This document shows positions 12,914-22,824 of a stretch of DNA of 22,824 nucleotides, piece by piece. A model generated the notes under the pieces. That model saw only the letters and a list, made by a program, of their open reading frames with translations, searched no databases and had not been told where the DNA came from. This DNA is from a virus: IMG/VR virus record IMGVR_UViG_3300035083_000019, positions 1 through 22,824 of that record; one strand, 5' to 3'. Position numbers and translations under genes: made by a program. Every line of letters starts with the position of its first letter. The first letter of the stretch is position 1.

Positions 12914-13294
12914 ATGGTTAATATTACGACATCAGGTTCATTCGACAGAACAGACCGTTTTCTTTCCCGAATGTCAAAGAGAAACATAATCAGTAATCTC
13001 AACTCTTATGGCCAAATGGGAGTAGACGCACTTTCAGCAGCAACTCCTGCTTCTACAGGCGAGACTGCAGCTTCCTGGTATTATGAAATTCAGGGAAGCG
13101 GTCTCGACTTTATTATCCGGTGGTGCAATCGTCATCTTGATAGTGCCGGAACTCCCATCGTAATCATGCTTCAACTAGGTCACGGAACTGGAACCGGAGG
13201 GTACGTACAAGGACGGGATTTCATTAACCCGGCAATCGCGACTATATTTGATCAGATTGCCAACGATGCGTGGAAGGAGGTGATGTCTTCATGA
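12914..13294 (+). CDS. HK97 gp10-like tail completion protein
   Basis: A 126-residue protein. The N terminus is amphipathic and basic (FDRTDRFLSRMSKRN), followed by VDALSAATPASTGETAASWYYEI, where the TPxxTGxTAxSW-type stretch is typical of HK97 gp10-like proteins. The C-terminal half has IIRWCNRH, LQLGHGTGTGGYVQGRDFINPAI and FDQIANDAWKEV. I know this GHGTGTGGYVxGRDFINPA element from small proteins of siphovirus tail modules. The last codons overlap the tape measure start, and the tape measure ribosome binding site is inside this gene. Likely a neck or tail-completion protein. Confidence 0.75.
   Translation: MVNITTSGSFDRTDRFLSRMSKRNIISNLNSYGQMGVDALSAATPASTGETAASWYYEIQGSGLDFIIRWCNRHLDSAGTPIVIMLQLGHGTGTGGYVQGRDFINPAIATIFDQIANDAWKEVMSS
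13274..13284 (+). promoter_or_regulatory. Ribosome binding site deciding the tape measure start
   Basis: AAGGAGGTGAT is a full-length Shine-Dalgarno match ending seven bases before ATG 13291. It rules against the in-frame GTG at 13270, which lies upstream of the site. Confidence 0.75.
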
Positions 13295-16200
13295 GCGGAA
13301 GTATCGATGAACGTATAGTCGAAATGACATTCAGAGGTACAGCATTTGCTGCGGGGATCAAGAATTCTCTAACTTCCCTGAACAGTCTTAAGACTGGCCT
13401 GAATAGCCTTAAGGGATCTGAAGCAGACATCAATAATCTTGATGCCGCAGGAAAGAGATTCTCCCTCAAAGGAATGTCCAATGGAATCGAAGGACTTGCA
13501 GGCAAGTTCAAGTCTCTCGGAATAGTTGGCGTCACTGCTCTTGCTACCATCACAAACAAAGCAGTCAACGTAGGTATATCTCTAGTCAAAGCACTGACAA
13601 TTGATCCGATCAAGGCTGGCTTTGACGTCTATGAGACGAAGATAAATGCGATTCAGACTATTCTTGCCAACACTGCTGCCGCTGGTACAACGCTTAAGCA
13701 AGTTACTGCAGCTCTTGCTCAACTTAACACTTACGCGAATCTGACCGTATATAACTTTGGTGAGATGGCAAGGAACATTGGTACGTTCACAGCTGCTGGC
13801 GTAGGATTGAAGACTGCAGTTGCCTCGATCAAGGGTATTGCAAACCTTGCCGCTCTCTCCGGCGCAAGTGCTGATCAAGCTTCGAGAGGTATGTATCAGC
13901 TCTCTCAGGCAATCGCTGCTGGCAGAGTCAAACTGCAAGACTGGAACTCGGTTGTTAATGCTGGTTTCGGCGGTAAAGTATTCCAGACGGCTCTGATAAA
14001 CACAGCAAGAGCCTTTGGCATTAACGTCGATGCTATGATTAAGAAGGCTGGAAGTTTCAGGCAATCTCTTCAGACCGGATGGATCTCTTCTAAAGTTCTG
14101 ACTACGGCTCTGGCCACATTTACAGGCGATCTTAGTAATGCTCAGCTTAGGGCACTTGGTTTCACTGAAAAAGAAACCATAGCCATTCAGAAACAGGCCA
14201 AAATAGCAGTTCAGTCAGCGACTCAAATCAGGACGATAACTCAACTTAATCAGGCTCTGAAGGAAGAAGTCGCAACTGCCTGGGCATCTGTATTCCAGGC
14301 GATAATCGGAAACAGTCATCAGGCTGTGAAGACTCTTTCGGCTATTCATAGTGCTGCGGAAAACTTCCTCACTAAGCCGATTTACAGTCTGGCCAAGGTT
14401 CTTCAGCAATTTACAGATCTGGGTGGCCGAGCGGTTGTCATTAAAAGCCTTGAGAATGTGCTTCACTCTCTTGGTACTATTCTTCATGTTGTCGGTGAGG
14501 CATTCAGATCTGTCTTCCCGTCAACTGGCGGTGGTGCTGCCAGTGGATTGCTTTCCATGGCCAAGGCTTTTGAAAGATTCACTGCGGCCCTGACTCCTAG
14601 TGCAAAAACTCTGGGTTATCTGAAATCGATCTTCGCGGGACTCTTTTCAGCCGTTAAAATTGTTTATGATGTAATCAGCGGCTTGATACGAGTAATATTC
14701 CATCTGGGAGATTCGGCCTCAAAAAGCGGTGCTGGTTTCCTGGCCCTGATAGCTAAACTAGGCGATTTCATTACTAAGATCCGGAAGTCGATCGAGTCTG
14801 GTACTGCTCTTGGAAATTTCTTCCGTGTACTCGGTACGATTCTCTCCTTCCCGATCAAGGTCATAGAAGCTATTATCAGCAAGCTCGGTGGAATGGGCGG
14901 AGCTTTCGGAAAAGCAACTGGCGGTATTTCAGGATTCATTCAGAAGATCGGCGATTTCTTCAAGAATATTGCTAACTTCATTATTAAGGGCATTAATAGC
15001 GGAAACTTCAGCGCAATAGCCAGTTTGCTTAACCATCTTCTTGTAGGCAGCATCCTTCTGACAGTCAAGAAGTTCTTCAGTGGTTTCGGAAAAGCTAGTG
15101 GTGCAGGCGGAGGTATATTCGCAGGCATCAAAGAATCACTTGAAGGTTTGAACAAAACGTTTGAGACCATGCAAAACAAGCTCAAGTCAGGTATACTTAA
15201 GAACATTGCTATTGCAATAGGTATACTTGCGGTCTCACTATTGCTTCTGTCATTCATCAAACCCGCTAATTTGGCTAAGGCAGTCGCTGCTATCACTGTG
15301 ATGATGACTGAACTCATCACATCTATGAAGTTCTTGGTCAAGTTCAGCGAAGAAGGCGGCATCCTTCAAATGATAGCTGCCGCGGCAGCTCTTGACTTGC
15401 TAGCTGTGGCGATCCTGATTCTTGCTGCTGCTGTAGCAATTCTTTCTCACTTCAGCTGGGAGCAACTGGGCAAGGGATTGTCCGCAATTGCAGTTTTGCT
15501 AGCCTCGCTTGCACTTACGACCAAACTTCTGTCCGCTGATTCAAAGGGACTTATCGCTTCGGCGATTGCCATCGGAATTCTGGCTGTTTCGCTGAACATA
15601 CTGGCAATTGCAGTCGGAACACTCGGAAAACTTCCAGTAGCCAACCTGGTCAAGGGAATTGCCGCGATTGCCGTACTCCTGGCGATCATGGCTGGATTCA
15701 ACGCAATTAGCGGTACTCAGCTCATTCGTACCGGACTTGCAATGGTCATCGTCGGAGCAGCACTTATTGTCATCTCCAAGGCTGTAGGAAGTCTTGGAGC
15801 CATGTCAATCGGAACTTTGGCCAAGGGGATTATCTCCATTGCTGTTGTTCTTGGTGTTCTCGCAGCCGGTATGCTTGTTATGGAAGGCTCGATTCCTGGT
15901 GCAGTAGCACTAGTTATTGCTGCAGCTGCTCTTGAGATACTAGGCAATGTATTGCGCAAAATGGGATCAATGTCGTGGGGTTCCATTGCAAAATCACTAG
16001 TTCTTCTATTCGGATCACTTTTGCTTATCGCAGCAGCAATGATTGCCATGGAAGCAGCTCTTCCGGGAGCAGCCGCATTGCTTGTCGTTGCAGCATCGTT
16101 GGCAATCTTGACGCCAATTCTGATTGCTCTGGGCCACATGTCCTGGACGGCAATCGCCAAAGGCCTTCTAGCTCTCGCAGGCGTTTTCCTGGTTTTGGCT

Positions 16201-17508
16201 GCGGCGGGAGTTGTGCTAACACCTCTTATACCGAGTTTGCTTGGTATAGGTGCAGCTGTCGCGCTGCTTGGCATAGGTCTTGCACTAGCTGGTGCCGGTG
16301 TCTTCCTGTTCGCAACCGGACTTACAGCTCTTGGTGCAGCTCTTATCGTTTCGGGCGTAGCCATATTGTCATTCGTCAAGAGCATCCTGACTATTATTCC
16401 GGTAGCAGCAAAGGAACTCGGACTAGGAATAATTGCTCTGGCAAACGCTATTGCTGGCGGAACAGTCGCCATTACTAACGCTTTCGTAGCGATCTTGTCT
16501 GCCATCCTCAAGGGGATAATAAAGGTTGCCCCGCTGGCTGAAAAGACCTTTGAAGAAGTAATGACCGCGATTCTCAGGTCAATAAAAAAGTACTCTGGAC
16601 CGATTACTAACACGTTCCTGAATCTTATTCAGTTGTTGCTGAACGCTGTCAATAATCATCTTCCAAGATTCATCAATTCTGGAGTTAGCATTGTAATAGG
16701 TTTCCTTAACGGCATCCAGCGGAATATAGCAAAGGTTGCTAGTGCCGGAACGAACATTGTTATTACGTTCATTAATGCTATTAACAACGGCACTCAGCGT
16801 ATCGTTTCTGCTGGCATCACCATGATCATTAATCTGGTGAACGGCATAGCTAATAAGATCCATGCAAGTAATCCGGCAATGTCTGCGGCAGCTCGTAATC
16901 TTGGAAGTGCCATCGTTCAAGGGATGATTCTGGGAGTTGAAGGTTCCCTGCAAGGATTGTTTGGTTCCGTTATAAATGCGGCAAAGGGTGCTCTGCACGC
17001 TGCTATGCATGCCATCGGAGCGAATTCGCCATCCAGGGAATTCATGAAGGTTGGCAAGTTCAGCATGCTTGGCTGGGCTCAGGGAAATATCGACAACACT
17101 AGCATTGTAACTGATTCTGTGGAAGCAGCAGGAAAGGCTGCTCTTAACAGTCTCGGAAAGACGATGTCTAATGTCGGGGCATTCATCAGTGACAATCTAG
17201 ATCTTCAGCCTCGAATCACTCCAGTGATTGATCTCACAAAGGCCAGGGCGGGTTTCGGTCAGCTATCGGCCTTGTCAAAGAGTCATCTGATCAATGCTGG
17301 TGCCTCGACTACTTCAGCAGCATCTATATCTGCAGCTAACGCAATAGCAGCACAACAAGCGAGTCTCGTACAACATACTCAAAATCTGACGTTCAATCAG
17401 ACCAACACTTCTCCGGCGTCACTATCCGCAGCGGATATTTACCGGAAGACAAAAAATCAGCTATCTATCGCGAAGGGAGTACTAGCAGGTAATGCTAACC
17501 GCAGTTGA
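13291..17508 (+). CDS. Tape measure protein
   Basis: A 1405-residue protein that fixes tail length and is ejected with the DNA. Start ATG 13291 overlaps the previous stop as ATGA. The N-terminal 300 residues carry the conserved tape measure domain: IDPIKAGFDVYETKINAIQT, LNTYANLTVYNFGEMARNIG, TAAGVGLKTAVASIKGIANL and LKEEVATAWASVFQAI. From about residue 635 to 1040 there is a run of strongly hydrophobic helices (IAIAIGILAVSLLLLSFI, LLAVAILILAAAVAILS and others), typical of membrane-inserting tape measures. Near 1245 is NSPSREFMKVGKFSMLGWAQG, a segment frequent near tape measure C termini. At about 0.15 nm per residue this predicts a tail near 210 nm. No lysozyme or peptidase domain is obvious. 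Confidence 0.96.
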   Translation: MSGSIDERIVEMTFRGTAFAAGIKNSLTSLNSLKTGLNSLKGSEADINNLDAAGKRFSLKGMSNGIEGLAGKFKSLGIVGVTALATITNKAVNVGISLVKALTIDPIKAGFDVYETKINAIQTILANTAAAGTTLKQVTAALAQLNTYANLTVYNFGEMARNIGTFTAAGVGLKTAVASIKGIANLAALSGASADQASRGMYQLSQAIAAGRVKLQDWNSVVNAGFGGKVFQTALINTARAFGINVDAMIKKAGSFRQSLQTGWISSKVLTTALATFTGDLSNAQLRALGFTEKETIAIQKQAKIAVQSATQIRTITQLNQALKEEVATAWASVFQAIIGNSHQAVKTLSAIHSAAENFLTKPIYSLAKVLQQFTDLGGRAVVIKSLENVLHSLGTILHVVGEAFRSVFPSTGGGAASGLLSMAKAFERFTAALTPSAKTLGYLKSIFAGLFSAVKIVYDVISGLIRVIFHLGDSASKSGAGFLALIAKLGDFITKIRKSIESGTALGNFFRVLGTILSFPIKVIEAIISKLGGMGGAFGKATGGISGFIQKIGDFFKNIANFIIKGINSGNFSAIASLLNHLLVGSILLTVKKFFSGFGKASGAGGGIFAGIKESLEGLNKTFETMQNKLKSGILKNIAIAIGILAVSLLLLSFIKPANLAKAVAAITVMMTELITSMKFLVKFSEEGGILQMIAAAAALDLLAVAILILAAAVAILSHFSWEQLGKGLSAIAVLLASLALTTKLLSADSKGLIASAIAIGILAVSLNILAIAVGTLGKLPVANLVKGIAAIAVLLAIMAGFNAISGTQLIRTGLAMVIVGAALIVISKAVGSLGAMSIGTLAKGIISIAVVLGVLAAGMLVMEGSIPGAVALVIAAAALEILGNVLRKMGSMSWGSIAKSLVLLFGSLLLIAAAMIAMEAALPGAAALLVVAASLAILTPILIALGHMSWTAIAKGLLALAGVFLVLAAAGVVLTPLIPSLLGIGAAVALLGIGLALAGAGVFLFATGLTALGAALIVSGVAILSFVKSILTIIPVAAKELGLGIIALANAIAGGTVAITNAFVAILSAILKGIIKVAPLAEKTFEEVMTAILRSIKKYSGPITNTFLNLIQLLLNAVNNHLPRFINSGVSIVIGFLNGIQRNIAKVASAGTNIVITFINAINNGTQRIVSAGITMIINLVNGIANKIHASNPAMSAAARNLGSAIVQGMILGVEGSLQGLFGSVINAAKGALHAAMHAIGANSPSREFMKVGKFSMLGWAQGNIDNTSIVTDSVEAAGKAALNSLGKTMSNVGAFISDNLDLQPRITPVIDLTKARAGFGQLSALSKSHLINAGASTTSAASISAANAIAAQQASLVQHTQNLTFNQTNTSPASLSAADIYRKTKNQLSIAKGVLAGNANRS

Positions 17509-18316
17509 TATAACCAATCCTAGTGGGAACACACTATCACTCCCTCTTCTCGATTCTTCGGCTGGATATTCCATCCGGGATATCGGAGGTCTGGGTCCTG
17601 TCACAGCAGCACTGACATCTTCATCTCTGGCGCAAGTGGACGGGGCTCAGCCTCAGAATGCCAGAAGAGATATCAGAAATATCACGATGAAGCTGGGCCT
17701 CAAACCGAATTACGGAATGAATACAGTTCAGTCTCTCCGGTTCAATCTATACGATTATCTTCTGCCCAAGGCAATAATCGATCTTGGGTTCTACATTGAC
17801 GGTGTACTTTATGTGGTTACTTCGGGTCAGGTCGAGAGTTGTGATCCCGTTATATTCTCGGCCGACCCGGAAGTCGACATTTCAATTATCTGTTATGATC
17901 CTGATTTCTTCGGGCCTTCGGAACTGAATCTTTCAGGTCACACTCAGGCGGATCACACAACAACTAGCCTGATTCAGTATGCAGGAACGTCAGATGCAGG
18001 ATTTATATTTACCCTGCATGTAGACCGGGCCATTAGTGATTTCGTCATTACGAATACAACTTCAAATGATCTAGTGCGTTCTCTGGAATTGACAGCCTCG
18101 TTTATCCCCGGGGATGTAATCGCTATAAACACGATTCCAGGATCGAAAGGCGTTACTCTTACACGATCAGGCATTACCACTTCGATTCTCTATTACATGA
18201 ATCCGCTATCTACCTGGCCCTTCCTGCAGAAGGGAGACAATAACTTCGCAGCGTACACATCGGGGGCAGGAATTTTGTACGATCTTGTCTACACGCCTAG
18301 GTTCGGGGGCATCTGA
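17492..18316 (+). CDS. Distal tail protein (Dit-like)
   Basis: A 274-residue protein that starts inside the tape measure gene (17-base overlap) with AAGGGAGT upstream. The first 130 residues fit a siphovirus tail family/Dit N-terminal domain: YSIRDIGGLGPVTAALTSSS, ARRDIRNITMKLGLKPN, SLRFNLYDYLLPK, then strands LGFYIDGVLYVVTSGQVESC and DISIICYDPDFFGP. The rest is a beta-rich domain (GFIFTLHVDRAISDFVITN, LTASFIPGDVIAINTIPG, GVTLTRSG). Dit forms the hexameric ring at the tail end that joins the tube to the hub. Its place between tape measure and hub gene is the standard order. The stop overlaps the next ATG by one base. Confidence 0.85.
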   Translation: MLTAVDITNPSGNTLSLPLLDSSAGYSIRDIGGLGPVTAALTSSSLAQVDGAQPQNARRDIRNITMKLGLKPNYGMNTVQSLRFNLYDYLLPKAIIDLGFYIDGVLYVVTSGQVESCDPVIFSADPEVDISIICYDPDFFGPSELNLSGHTQADHTTTSLIQYAGTSDAGFIFTLHVDRAISDFVITNTTSNDLVRSLELTASFIPGDVIAINTIPGSKGVTLTRSGITTSILYYMNPLSTWPFLQKGDNNFAAYTSGAGILYDLVYTPRFGGI

Positions 18317-21300
18317 TGGTTACCCTGAACAACACTCTTGAGGGTGTGGCATCAGGTACTACTCTTACCGGCGGCAGTAGTGGTAACAGCGGAGGAACGT
18401 CAGGTAATTTCTTTGACTCTGTGGCCATCGTTGCGGGAGGTACACTAGCATCCGACAATTCCTGGTCGGCGCATGGACTTAACTCCCTGAAAATAGCCAC
18501 AGGATCCACTGCTGGTAACTCCATAGCAAACTGGCAGTCGAGCCTTACTGCTTCCAGTCTCGCGACTGTATATTTCCGCTATGCTCTTAAGTTCACTGCA
18601 AATCCGTCAGCAGATCACAGAATACTCACTGCCCTGATTTCAAGTGGCGGTGGCGTATGCTCATTCTGGGTTAGCTCCACAGGTAAGATACTAGCCAAGA
18701 ATGCAGCTGGCACGACAATTCTCACTTCTACAGCGTCTATTCCTCTTGGTACCGGATTCCGTCTAGAGGGTCTTATAACCGGCCATGCAACTGCCGGGCA
18801 GCTTCAGTTCAAGTTGTTCACAACATCGATGGATGCTGTGACAGCTGATGAAACTTCATCTTTGGCAACAGGCCTTGCCACAGGCGGACCCATAACCAAG
18901 GTTCAGATTGGTATCGGCGGAACATCAATAGCAAACGCCGGACCATTCTGGGCAGATGATATAGCTTTCTCTGATGTTGGCTACCTAGGCCCGGTTATCA
19001 CCGGAACGGGCTCAGTAAGAATGCACAAGATGAGCCTGTCTGGTTCCGGGATTGAGAAGATCTCAGCAACAGGCTCAATTCGCATTCACAAGATGGGTCT
19101 GTCTGCTGCTGGAATCGGGAAAATCTCAGCAACAGGCTCAATCGCGATGCACAAGATGGGCTTGTCTGCGGTTGGAGCTCCTGCAACATTTATTACTTTG
19201 TCAAACAGTTTTGAAGGTATCCCTTCTGGAACTACTCTGACAGGTGGCAGTGGCGGGAATACAGGAGGACTATCTGGCGACTTCCTTGATACTGTGTTTG
19301 CTTCCGCTGCTGCGACACTGGTATCTGACAATTCCTGGTCGGCACACGGTCTTAATTCTCTCAAGGTTGCTACCGGTCTGACTGCCGGAAATGCTCAGGT
19401 AACATGGGGAGCAAGTCTTTCTTCTAGTTCTGTTCCTACCGTATGGTTCAGGCAATATCTCAAATTCTCGTCGAACCCTGCTGCATCACTAAGGATATTT
19501 GGAACAACTGTTATAGCTGGCGGAGGAGTTGGCTCATTCTGGGTCAATACCTCAGGCAAAATAGAAGTTCATAATGCTGCCGGTACAACAGTTTTTACGT
19601 CAATTGCCAGTATTCCTCTTGGCACCGGATTCCGCCTGGAAGGCTTCATAACCGGTCATATTTCTGCCGGCCAGGCGCAATTCAAGTTGTTCACGACGTC
19701 AATGGATGCGCTAGTCGCTGATGAAACTTCGCTTTTGCATACAGGTCTTGCCACGGGCGGACCTATAGCAAAGGTATATTTTGGTATCAACGGCGCGTTG
19801 ATTTCAAATGCTGGTCCTTACAACATAGATGATATTTCAGTCTCTACAGTTGGCTGGATAGGCCCGGTTCTCACTGGCACGGGCTCGATCCGAATGCACA
19901 AGATGTCTGTCTCCGGCAGTCAGATTATCACAGGCTCAATCGCGATGCACAAAATGGGACTGTTCAGTAATACAGGCTCAATCGCGATGCACAAGATGAC
20001 TTTCTCCGGAGGCGGCTTTGAGATAGATGCAGGAACAGGATCCATCAGGATTAAGAAGATGGGCCTGTCTGCTTCTTCGATTCAGAGAGATTCTGGCACA
20101 GGATCCGTTCGTGTTAAGAAGATGCGCCTGTCTGGTTCCGGAACTGTAAGAGTTCCAGTTACAGGTACAGGATCCGTCCGTGTTAAGAAGATGCGCCTGT
20201 CTGGTTCCGGAGTATTCGTAGGCAGGAATATCCTGCGTCCGCAGACAGGCAAAGCATGGTTCGGTGCTTATGCGGGATCAGGAAATGCGGCGCCATCTAC
20301 GTTTGAGAACGCCGGCGATGTACTTAACGCTACTCGTAAGCTAGACATCATTGCTCGTTATGATAAATTTGATGCGCGATGGCCGTCTGCAACGGAAAAG
20401 TCTTATGTCGGATCAGGTACGGGTCGTACTGCAATATCGTTTAACTGGCCTTGCGCTACTGTATCGCCTAATACTCGCGGCGGCCGGACCTCGTCAAGTA
20501 ATGTTTACTGGGCAGATATAACAGCAGGGATCTGGGACGATGTAATCGATGCTCAAGGAGCTTACCTTGCGGCATATGGCCAGCCTGTTCTGATCAGTTT
20601 CGCTGGTGAATTTGACAGTACAGCCAGAGCTATCGATATTTTCGGCGAAGGCGATCCGCGCGAGTATGTTCCTGCCTACAGACGAATCGTAGACCGGGTA
20701 CGTGCCCAAGGTGCAACGAATGTCATCTGGTGCTGGCGTCCAACAGGAAACAACCTGACCGTTTCCGGATCGTTTATCGGCGGCTTGTCACTTGAAGTGA
20801 TGTATCCAGGAGATACTTACACGGACTGGATATGCGCAGATCTCTACGACACGAATCTTTCCCATGGCAGCGCATATAATGCGTATCATACATTCTTTGA
20901 CTGGATAGCAGCCGGGAATCTGGGAGCGAATGCCGGAACTGGCAGTCATCATTATCCGGCAGGAACAGGAATCAGCAAGGCTCGTGCCATCCTGGAGACC
21001 GGAGTTGGCACCACAGTATCTGATTCGGCCCGGGCTGCCTGGATTAACACTGTCCCGGCAGGATGCACGACGCTAGGCATCCAGATCTGGATGTGGTTCA
21101 ACGCAACCGGGACACTCGGAACATTCATTGATCCTGTCACATTCCCTCTGACATGCCTCGCCATGCAGTCGATCGGCGCCAGTTCGTTCTTTACGGAAAG
21201 CGGAGCTGGATCCATTCGGCTAAAGAAGATGCGCCTGTCTGGTGCGGGCACTGCTGTAGGGCTGAAATCAGGATCAGTCCGCATGCACAAAATGGGACTT

Positions 21301-22824
21301 TCGGGCATTGGCGTAATCAAATCCACTGTAGTGTCCCCGCCGAAATACTGGTACACCATAGATTCTTCTCTCAGGCGTGATCAGGTGATAGAGGGTTTCG
21401 AATCTCTTATATGGACTGAGAGATATTCCGCTTACGGTGATTTTCAGATAGTAATGAAGTCGACACTTGAAAATCGCAGACTGTTGACCAAGGATACTCT
21501 TATAGGCATGAATGGTTCGCGTCGTGTGATGAAGGTTCGTACAATCGCAGATGACGTTGATGACGCTGGAACCAGAAACATTACAGTTACGGGAAAGTCT
21601 CTCGAGGCAATCCTCGATGATCGTGTAGCCATTCCAAACCTTATGGGTACGACTGCGACACCGAACTGGACACTTACAGGAACACCAGGTGATATTGCCA
21701 GAGCTATGTTCTCTGATATTTGCGTCTTCAAGGTTCTGGATCCACTCGACGCAATCGACTTTTATACTCCGGGCTCACTTCTTCCGGCGGGAAACCTCAC
21801 AGAACCCACGAACATCATTACTCTCATCGCGTCTCCTGACACACTTTACAATAGCGTGAAACAGCTATGCGATGCGTACAACCTTGGGTTCAGGTTCGTC
21901 AAAGACGGCGATACAGGAAAACTATATTTCGAGATTTACGTGGGTAATGACCATACCACGAATCAGTCAGTCAAACCTGCCGTTATATTTGACCCCAATA
22001 TGGAAAGTCTATCGAATGTTAGTCAGCTTACATCTACGGATCTGGTCAAGACTGTTGCTTATGTAGTCGCTGCAAATGGTTCGGCTATCGTCTATGCTCC
22101 TGGTGTCGATCCGTCAGCGTCGGGATTTGAACGACGTGTGTTGCTGGTCAACTCGAGCAACACAGATCCTGCGAGTAAGAAAGCTATATTTGTGGGTTAT
22201 AGCGGTTCCATACATGGCTGTTATCTTGCAAATCCGGCTGAGACGAAAGCTATATTTGACACTCCAACTTCGTTCATCGCCGGAGGCAGTCCGAAATCAA
22301 GTCCAGTTCAGGACGGCATGCATTCCACGCCCGTTATGAACTATTCATCTTACGCGCAATTCAAGGCTGACATCATCAACGCTCCCTACATTCAGGGAGA
22401 CTTTACGTATTCTCCAAACGGCCCGATTGACAGATCTATATTTCAGTGGGTCATCTACGATCCGGAAAACTGGGCGGCCACACCGCGCGAGGAAAAGCAA
22501 GATCCGAAGAAATACATCGGCTTCTTCATCGCACTCGCTCATGCTAACGGCTTCAAGGTTATACTCGCTCCAGGTCGTGATCTGGCGAATTCAGCTACCG
22601 TTAATCAGGCACTAGTTGGCGAGAATGTCAATGACTGGTTCGTGCGAGTCAATGTGGCCTCATGGTGTGCGACTGCTGACATGTTCGAGTTTCAGGATCA
22701 GAACAATCAGGCGTCATCGACAGACTTTGTTGGTTATTTCACTACTGTGCGCAATCAGATAAGAGCGGTTAATCCCACCATCCCTGTACTGTGCGGGATC
22801 ATTACTACCGGCGGCGGTTTGCTT
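18316..22824 (+). CDS. Giant tail-tip protein: lectin-like domains, GH26-like domain and Gp37-like hub, 3'-partial
   Basis: Read in frame from ATG 18316 there is no stop to the right edge, giving at least 1503 residues. Residues 1-227 and 292-518 are paralogous jelly-roll, lectin-like domains (ASDNSWSAHGLNSLKIATG against VSDNSWSAHGLNSLKVATG; both contain IPLGTGFRLEG). Between and after them lie eleven copies of a GSVRMHKMSLSGSG-type repeat. Residues 638-960 are GH26-like, with LISFAGEFD (Glu765), NVIWCWRP, YPGDTYTDWICADLYD and ILETGVG (Glu894). Residues 1010 to about 1335 match the Siphovirus ReqiPepy6 Gp37-like tail family (YWYTIDSSLRRDQVIEGFES, TVTGKSLEAILDDRV), a tail hub component. From 1336 a second barrel begins (IYDPENWAATPREEKQDP). 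It follows the Dit gene with a one-base overlap. Likely the hub that binds and cleaves host surface glycan. Domain calls are by motif recall, not database search. Confidence 0.9.
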   Translation, partial: MVTLNNTLEGVASGTTLTGGSSGNSGGTSGNFFDSVAIVAGGTLASDNSWSAHGLNSLKIATGSTAGNSIANWQSSLTASSLATVYFRYALKFTANPSADHRILTALISSGGGVCSFWVSSTGKILAKNAAGTTILTSTASIPLGTGFRLEGLITGHATAGQLQFKLFTTSMDAVTADETSSLATGLATGGPITKVQIGIGGTSIANAGPFWADDIAFSDVGYLGPVITGTGSVRMHKMSLSGSGIEKISATGSIRIHKMGLSAAGIGKISATGSIAMHKMGLSAVGAPATFITLSNSFEGIPSGTTLTGGSGGNTGGLSGDFLDTVFASAAATLVSDNSWSAHGLNSLKVATGLTAGNAQVTWGASLSSSSVPTVWFRQYLKFSSNPAASLRIFGTTVIAGGGVGSFWVNTSGKIEVHNAAGTTVFTSIASIPLGTGFRLEGFITGHISAGQAQFKLFTTSMDALVADETSLLHTGLATGGPIAKVYFGINGALISNAGPYNIDDISVSTVGWIGPVLTGTGSIRMHKMSVSGSQIITGSIAMHKMGLFSNTGSIAMHKMTFSGGGFEIDAGTGSIRIKKMGLSASSIQRDSGTGSVRVKKMRLSGSGTVRVPVTGTGSVRVKKMRLSGSGVFVGRNILRPQTGKAWFGAYAGSGNAAPSTFENAGDVLNATRKLDIIARYDKFDARWPSATEKSYVGSGTGRTAISFNWPCATVSPNTRGGRTSSSNVYWADITAGIWDDVIDAQGAYLAAYGQPVLISFAGEFDSTARAIDIFGEGDPREYVPAYRRIVDRVRAQGATNVIWCWRPTGNNLTVSGSFIGGLSLEVMYPGDTYTDWICADLYDTNLSHGSAYNAYHTFFDWIAAGNLGANAGTGSHHYPAGTGISKARAILETGVGTTVSDSARAAWINTVPAGCTTLGIQIWMWFNATGTLGTFIDPVTFPLTCLAMQSIGASSFFTESGAGSIRLKKMRLSGAGTAVGLKSGSVRMHKMGLSGIGVIKSTVVSPPKYWYTIDSSLRRDQVIEGFESLIWTERYSAYGDFQIVMKSTLENRRLLTKDTLIGMNGSRRVMKVRTIADDVDDAGTRNITVTGKSLEAILDDRVAIPNLMGTTATPNWTLTGTPGDIARAMFSDICVFKVLDPLDAIDFYTPGSLLPAGNLTEPTNIITLIASPDTLYNSVKQLCDAYNLGFRFVKDGDTGKLYFEIYVGNDHTTNQSVKPAVIFDPNMESLSNVSQLTSTDLVKTVAYVVAANGSAIVYAPGVDPSASGFERRVLLVNSSNTDPASKKAIFVGYSGSIHGCYLANPAETKAIFDTPTSFIAGGSPKSSPVQDGMHSTPVMNYSSYAQFKADIINAPYIQGDFTYSPNGPIDRSIFQWVIYDPENWAATPREEKQDPKKYIGFFIALAHANGFKVILAPGRDLANSATVNQALVGENVNDWFVRVNVASWCATADMFEFQDQNNQASSTDFVGYFTTVRNQIRAVNPTIPVLCGIITTGGGLL
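19006..19188 (+). repeat. GS-x-MHKM repeat block A, 3 copies
   Basis: Three units encode TGSVRMHKMSLSGSGIEKIS, TGSIRIHKMGLSAAGIGKIS and TGSIAMHKMGLSAVGA, between the two jelly rolls. The DNA shares the 16-base string ggttccgggattgaga with the 63-bp repeats at 1512. Confidence 0.9.
19879..20226 (+). repeat. GS-x-MHKM / GS-x-VKKM repeat block B, 6 copies
   Basis: Six units link the second jelly roll to the GH26-like domain. The first three keep MHKM, the last three change to IKKM or VKKM; the final two share the nucleotide string gttaagaagatgcgcctgtc, indicating a recent local duplication. Confidence 0.9.
20227..21198 (+). other. GH26-like glycosidase domain within the giant tail protein
   Basis: Segment for residues 638-961. 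The order of elements is that of family 26 beta-mannanases: WFGAY near the start, an acid/base Glu after a beta strand (PVLISFAGEFD, Glu765), the NVIWCWRPTG strand, YPGDTYTDWICADLYD, and a nucleophile-position Glu after a strand (AILETGVG, Glu894), closing with IQIWMWF. The family match is from memory; the substrate is not predictable, and GH26 includes enzymes other than mannanases. Confidence 0.7.
21205..21330 (+). repeat. GS-x-KKM / GS-x-MHKM repeat block C, 2 copies
   Basis: Two units (AGSIRLKKMRLSGAG and SGSVRMHKMGLSGIG) form the linker between the GH26-like domain and the Gp37-like hub domain. Confidence 0.85.
21343..22320 (+). other. ReqiPepy6 Gp37-like tail hub domain within the giant tail protein
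   Basis: Segment for residues 1010 to about 1335. It opens with YWYTIDSSLRRDQVIEGFES and WTERYSAYGDFQIVM, continues with RTIADDVDDAGTRNITVTG and LEAILDDRVAIPN, and has a long middle with SVKQLCDAYNLGFRFVKDG. Proteins of this family occupy the hub position after Dit in actinophage tails. Here the domain is internal, with about 1000 residues in front of it. Confidence 0.7.

Follow-up and report, generated by a model that had tools for sequence, protein, structure and literature searches.

A GH26-like glycosidase domain inside a phage gene raises the question of what such an enzyme does in a virus, and on which glycan it acts. The window analysed here is a virus record of 22.8 kb (IMG/VR record IMGVR_UViG_3300035083_000019, positions 1 to 22,824) with an overall G+C content of 49%. 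An earlier note, made from the letters of this DNA, had placed the domain in a phage tail protein, with glutamates at both catalytic positions, and had suggested a cell wall or capsular glycan of an actinobacterium as the target. We consider it likely that the domain is a virion-borne GH26 glycosidase, carried in an extension of the tail hub protein, that opens a surface polysaccharide of the host.

Profile searches (PHROG and Pfam) revealed a gene order that includes terminase, portal, head maturation protease and major tail protein genes, followed by the tape measure gene, the Dit gene and a final open reading frame that carries the GH26 domain. The parts of this region are listed in Table 1.

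Table 1. Features at the distal end of the window, with nucleotide coordinates of the window and residue numbers of the final open reading frame
Feature	Coordinates	Strand	Basis or remark
Tape measure protein	13270..17508	+	PF20155, E 1.4e-16
Distal tail protein Dit	17492..18316	+	PF22768, E 1.2e-8; phrog_33
Tail hub protein with N-terminal extension, at least 1503 aa	18316..22824	+	Open at contig end; 1-nt overlap with Dit gene
Duplicated domain copy 1, aa 1-230	18316..19005	+	66% identity to copy 2; no Pfam match
Linker repeats, type TGSIRMHKMGLSG, 3 copies	19003..19191	+	Sequence
Duplicated domain copy 2, aa 293-525	19192..19890	+	66% identity to copy 1; no Pfam match
Linker repeats, type TGSIRMHKMGLSG, 6 copies	19876..20232	+	Sequence
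GH26 domain (modelled part 20260-21186)	20233..21198	+	Pfam, PDB profile, model, structural match
Glu765, acid/base position, end of beta strand 4	20608..20610	+	Alignment, model
YPGDTYTDW element, YPGD from aa 830	20803..20829	+	Sequence; 68-row alignment
Glu894, nucleophile position, end of beta strand 7	20995..20997	+	Alignment, model
Linker repeats, type TGSIRMHKMGLSG, 2 copies, GH26 to hub	21202..21330	+	Sequence
Gp37-like tail hub domain	21352..22173	+	PF14594, E 3.9e-32; phrog_538 (minor tail protein), E 1.3e-57
C-terminal segment, no family match	22174..22824	+	Reference hubs have more hub sequence here

The window encodes a complete GH26 barrel between 20260 and 21186, and the sequence and structural matches of this domain to GH26 are far above chance level. 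A profile search and a structure prediction had been proposed in the earlier note as checks, and both bear out its reading of a GH26-like domain. The absence of a GH26 match, which the note had named as a refuting outcome, did not arise. Searched against the domain alone, PF02156 scored 22.4 bits (E 9.2e-5; Pfam cut-off 20.2), and against the full 1503 aa protein 19.1 bits, slightly under the cut-off. The GH26 lichenase of Clostridium thermocellum, CtLic26A (PDB 2bv9, 2cip, 2cit), was matched by a single-sequence phmmer search with the domain (E 1.6e-6) and by a profile of 68 relatives (alignment A2, described below; E 4e-81). A single-sequence AlphaFold model was unusable (pLDDT 32.7) and was replaced by a model based on A2 (pLDDT 84, pTM 0.87), which has eight barrel strands, strand 4 spanning positions 110-114 and followed by E117, and strand 7 spanning 241-247 and containing E246. 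The best solved structural match of this model is again CtLic26A (Z 28.4, 2.2 A, 255 residues; Foldseek E 1.5e-15), with GH26 xylanases and mannanases ranking after it at Z 22.5 or lower; the model is a (beta/alpha)8 barrel of the clan GH-A type, and its top matches are GH26 entries. Against viral models, Foldseek gave E values no better than 1e-6, for GH5-like and other barrels, and no named GH26 relative.

Both catalytic glutamates proposed in the earlier note were found where it had read them, within LISFAGEFD (from aa 759, Glu765 codon at 20608) and at the start of ETGVG (from aa 894, codon at 20995). They correspond to model positions 117 and 246, which the A2 profile aligns with the Glu of LHEANG and the Glu of IIIAEFA in CtLic26A, chain residues 109 and 222 as counted in the printed alignment; these we take to be the catalytic pair of that enzyme. 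PMC5217682 places the acid/base of GH26 enzymes where strand 4 ends and their nucleophile where strand 7 ends, and in both model and alignment Glu765 and Glu894 occupy these places. Glu is present at both positions in all 68 aligned domains. The YPGD element, likewise read from the sequence as a GH26-type feature, is conserved across the same 68 rows: in YPGDTYTDW the P, the G and the last D are invariant, and Y, D, Y and W are almost so.

Single-sequence searches with the GH26 domain found no relatives in viral contigs or genome contigs, and tblastn found none in a phage collection. A degenerate DNA pattern for the YPGD element (YPGDxY[TAVIM]DW) retrieved 33 viral stretches, from which alignment A1 was built, and a search with A1 reached 21 viral and 80 genome loci. 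Alignment A2 was chosen by hand and contains 68 domains, 25 from viral records (window included) and 43 from genomes, with duplicates, truncated or weak matches, second matches per locus and, for reasons of size, some further good matches omitted. PF02156 matches 66 of the 68 at E 0.001; it was also found in 32 of the 33 pattern-chosen viral records, which is not a frequency because the records were picked by the motif. One viral record of 110 kb (G021, loci L022 and L048) is matched by GH26 three times, once strongly (206 bits), and probably takes in the bacterial flanks of a prophage.

In a maximum-likelihood tree the window pairs with L004 (support 100/100), which is the closest relative (45% identity) and has Ig-like flanks; no recognised phage gene or family was found among the 8 open reading frames scanned on the L004 contig. 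The window's clade (31 rows, support 100/99) consists of 13 viral-contig records, window included, and 18 Actinomycetota enzymes, with the 13 viral rows grouped together at weaker support (94/71). GH26 is reported to split into five major branches, one without known function (PMC6556568).

Of the 18 actinobacterial loci in the clade, 14 or 15 contain genes typical of polysaccharide clusters. Locus L061 (Streptomyces acidiscabies) has its GH26 gene adjoining polysaccharide deacetylase, glycosyltransferase 2 and GNAT-type acetyltransferase genes (Pfam), and tblastn found relatives of these neighbours in 15 (deacetylase), 14 (GT2) and 15 (acetyltransferase) of the 18 actinobacterial loci in the clade. 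Relatives of a further upstream gene, flippase-like by eye and lacking a Pfam match, occur in 14 of the 18. Outside the clade list, relatives of the L061 neighbours were found in 6 of 62 loci, a comparison set of which not all members were placed in the tree. Fourteen Streptomyces loci of the clade, L061 among them, have a conserved gene set in which GH26 is accompanied by polysaccharide deacetylase, GT2 and GNAT-type acetyltransferase genes, apparently an uncharacterised surface polysaccharide cluster. For Actinoplanes missouriensis the GH26 protein WpsE is reported from a Wzx/Wzy exopolysaccharide cluster, and the authors state that, to their knowledge, no such cluster had been characterised before (PMC13390465).

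A His before the acid/base residue (HEMN type) is usual in mannanases. The earlier note had observed that HEMN is replaced by GEFD in the window, with Gly for His, and had taken this to mean that specificity may differ from that of mannanases. The change itself stands, and the mannanase-type His is absent from the window. As a sign of a unique specificity the Gly is weakened, since the position varies across the 68 rows (His 20, Trp 12, Gln 9, Asn 7, Leu 7, Gly 3; the rows are related, and all residue counts given here are descriptions and not tests). His precedes the acid/base in only 2 of the 31 clade members (1 of 13 viral, 1 of 18 bacterial) versus 18 of the 37 others, and no clade member has Arg at model position 113 (0 of 31), against 25 of the 37 others. 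Because His is scarce and Arg-113 absent throughout the clade, the divergence on the acid/base side is a property of the whole branch, and because the site is variable and the whole clade has changed, the Gly alone is weak evidence of a special specificity. The Asp two residues past the acid/base is shared by the window and 16 of the 18 actinobacterial clade enzymes.

Since the clade has changed acid/base surroundings that are common elsewhere in the alignment, catalytic loss or a new role is possible. The domain could be catalytically dead and help the tail to recognise its receptor by binding glycan, a reading that also draws on its position next to a duplicated domain that may itself bind sugar. 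We regard this as unlikely: the Glu pair that is invariant in the alignment is kept in all 13 viral and all 18 bacterial members of the clade, and all 13 viral members retain the tyrosine and aspartates of the YPGD element as well as the Tyr at model position 196.

The tail setting described in the earlier note was upheld and sharpened by PF14594 and phrog_538 to a Gp37-like tail hub protein, whose hub domain follows the GH26 domain in the same reading frame, right after the tape measure and Dit genes. The hub domain is up to 50% identical to hubs of Streptomyces, Arthrobacter and Microbacterium phages. Hub genes were examined in 8 of the 165 phages with a hub match; all 8 are 1.16-1.40 kb long and lack the N-terminal extension of the window, and the match to the window hub domain starts at the annotated start, up to 12 nt from it, or slightly upstream. 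The 1-nt overlap of the Dit and hub genes is found in the window and in 6 of these 8 phages. The window hub has about 1000 extra residues at its N-terminus, made up of two domain copies, 11 linker repeats and the GH26 domain. PF14594 had no match in the other 33 GH26 viral records, so that no fusion of GH26 with a Gp37 hub was seen in them, and the Gp37 segment had none in 197 actinomycete genomes, both in searches run without a positive control, and a Gp37-domain search of viral contigs found no match. Streptomyces phage Scarif (L136 1-312), a related phage, has another glycosidase in its tail region, the gene two upstream of its tape measure being annotated with a GH46 domain.

PHROG tape-measure models match 17 of the 33 viral GH26 records, and in 12 of these 17 the GH26 domain lies 0.5-7.8 kb downstream of the tape measure on the same strand, by distances read by hand from the match tables and with the 16 records that have no detected tape measure left out of the count. 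The five exceptions are G013, G015, G017, G021 and G028, although in G021 a further GH26 domain lies some 8 kb downstream of the tape measure. Among the 11 viral clade members other than the window and L004, the tape measure lies 0.5-7.8 kb upstream of GH26 in 10; no tape measure was detected in the exception, L027. In four of these members that were scanned directly, the tape measure gene was found a short distance upstream of GH26.

This placement bears on the idea that the GH26 gene is an auxiliary metabolic gene, a mannanase supplying the host by breaking down plant or environmental carbon. GH26 is listed among the auxiliary CAZymes of mangrove and tundra soil viruses in two studies (PMC6460857, PMC10127799), but a metabolic gene is expected to be a stand-alone enzyme gene outside the structural proteins, and here the domain shares one polypeptide and one reading frame with the tail hub. 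Its nearest solved enzyme is a lichenase, with mannanases more distant, and its viral relatives lie downstream of tape measures as described above. The metabolic reading was rejected on the GH26-hub fusion and is very improbable for the window. Just as little credence is given to an assembly chimera or repeat-caused artefact, for although the reference hubs start at the Gp37 domain in 8 of 8 cases, repeats flank GH26 on both sides and the contig ends inside the same gene, the gene stays open over 1503 aa and begins with the 1-nt Dit overlap also present in 6 of the 8 references, the G+C content of its parts is steady at 46-53%, and one linker type is common to all domain joints.

The 11 linker repeats, of the TGSIRMHKMGLSG type, separate the domains of the protein and drift from HKM to KKM forms. 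The duplicated domain is probably a lectin-like beta sandwich; it has weak similarity to a region after GH26 in the viral locus L031. The C-terminal segment, about 215 aa that replace hub sequence seen in the references, is barrel-like by eye and could represent another domain that was inserted into the hub. It had no match in PDB, phages, plasmids or viral contigs, none above cut-off in Pfam, and none in the 197 actinomycete genomes in a search that lacked a positive control.

Taken as a virion-borne glycosidase, the protein suggests the following order of events at the cell surface. The phage would build a retaining glycosidase with the GH26 (beta/alpha)8 fold into the N-terminal extension of its tail hub, displayed on linker repeats beside the duplicated domain, which probably binds sugar. 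When the phage meets a cell, this domain may hold the cell-surface glycan while Glu894 as nucleophile and Glu765 as acid/base would cleave a beta-linked polysaccharide of the surface, most probably an actinobacterial exopolysaccharide or capsule. Cutting this glycan would allow the hub to reach the wall and DNA to be injected; the tail-tip GH26 domain would thus clear or read the surface polysaccharide ahead of injection. In this picture the data show the GH26 family and fold, the placement of the two Glu residues, the fusion with the hub and the kinship with actinobacterial enzymes from polysaccharide clusters, while catalysis, substrate, host and the sequence of steps are inferred.

Mannan is not favoured as the substrate because a lichenase has the closest fold and the His usual in mannanases is lacking in the clade. 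The sister enzymes, and the resemblance of the tail genes to those of actinobacterial phages, speak for an actinobacterial exopolysaccharide, and the actinobacterial wall or capsule target suggested in the earlier note is made more plausible by the tree and gene context. A G+C content of 49% is low for a Streptomyces phage, and the G+C content of the window thus leaves the host open.

A broader proposal is offered tentatively, as one that could well fail: that phage tails have a GH26 branch of their own, which either was recruited from the GH26 enzymes of actinobacterial exopolysaccharide clusters or is shared with them; that its tail-tip members may cut the same Wzx/Wzy-type polysaccharide that the sister enzymes help to make or trim, and not mannan; and that the "carbon-metabolism" GH26 genes of soil viruses may in part be such entry enzymes. 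No description of GH26 in a phage tail hub, or of a tail-tip GH26 branch, was recognised in the open-licence literature searched. The window ties a tail-tip enzyme to a bacterial GH26 branch from largely uncharacterised actinobacterial polysaccharide clusters, and through this link the phage enzyme could serve as a probe for those polysaccharides and be a determinant of host range. It also calls for caution in tallies of viral carbon-cycling genes, since a GH26 gene included in them can encode a part of the virion.

Tail proteins that cut glycans are already known, and the window can be set beside several such or related systems. CtLic26A resembles the window domain in fold, Glu pair and YPGD element, but is only 23-24% identical to it and has HEANG where the window has GEFDS; it is a free cellulosomal enzyme and not a virion protein. 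Capsule depolymerases (tailspikes) likewise carry a glycan-cutting domain on a tail protein of the virion, a role that the window protein would share. Known depolymerases are typically trimeric beta-helix spikes, whereas the window has a GH26 barrel in the hub. The Gp37-like hubs of Bing (gp26) and LilHuddy (gp29) match the window in the hub domain and in the order tape measure, Dit, hub, but reference hubs of this type start at the Gp37 domain, and the window hub has the N-terminal extension with GH26. The GH26 enzyme of L061 falls in the same clade as the window and conserves the Glu pair. The GH26 enzymes of actinobacterial clusters (L061, and WpsE of PMC13390465, which stands outside the tree) are, in contrast, chromosomal, beside biosynthesis genes and without fusion to a tail protein.
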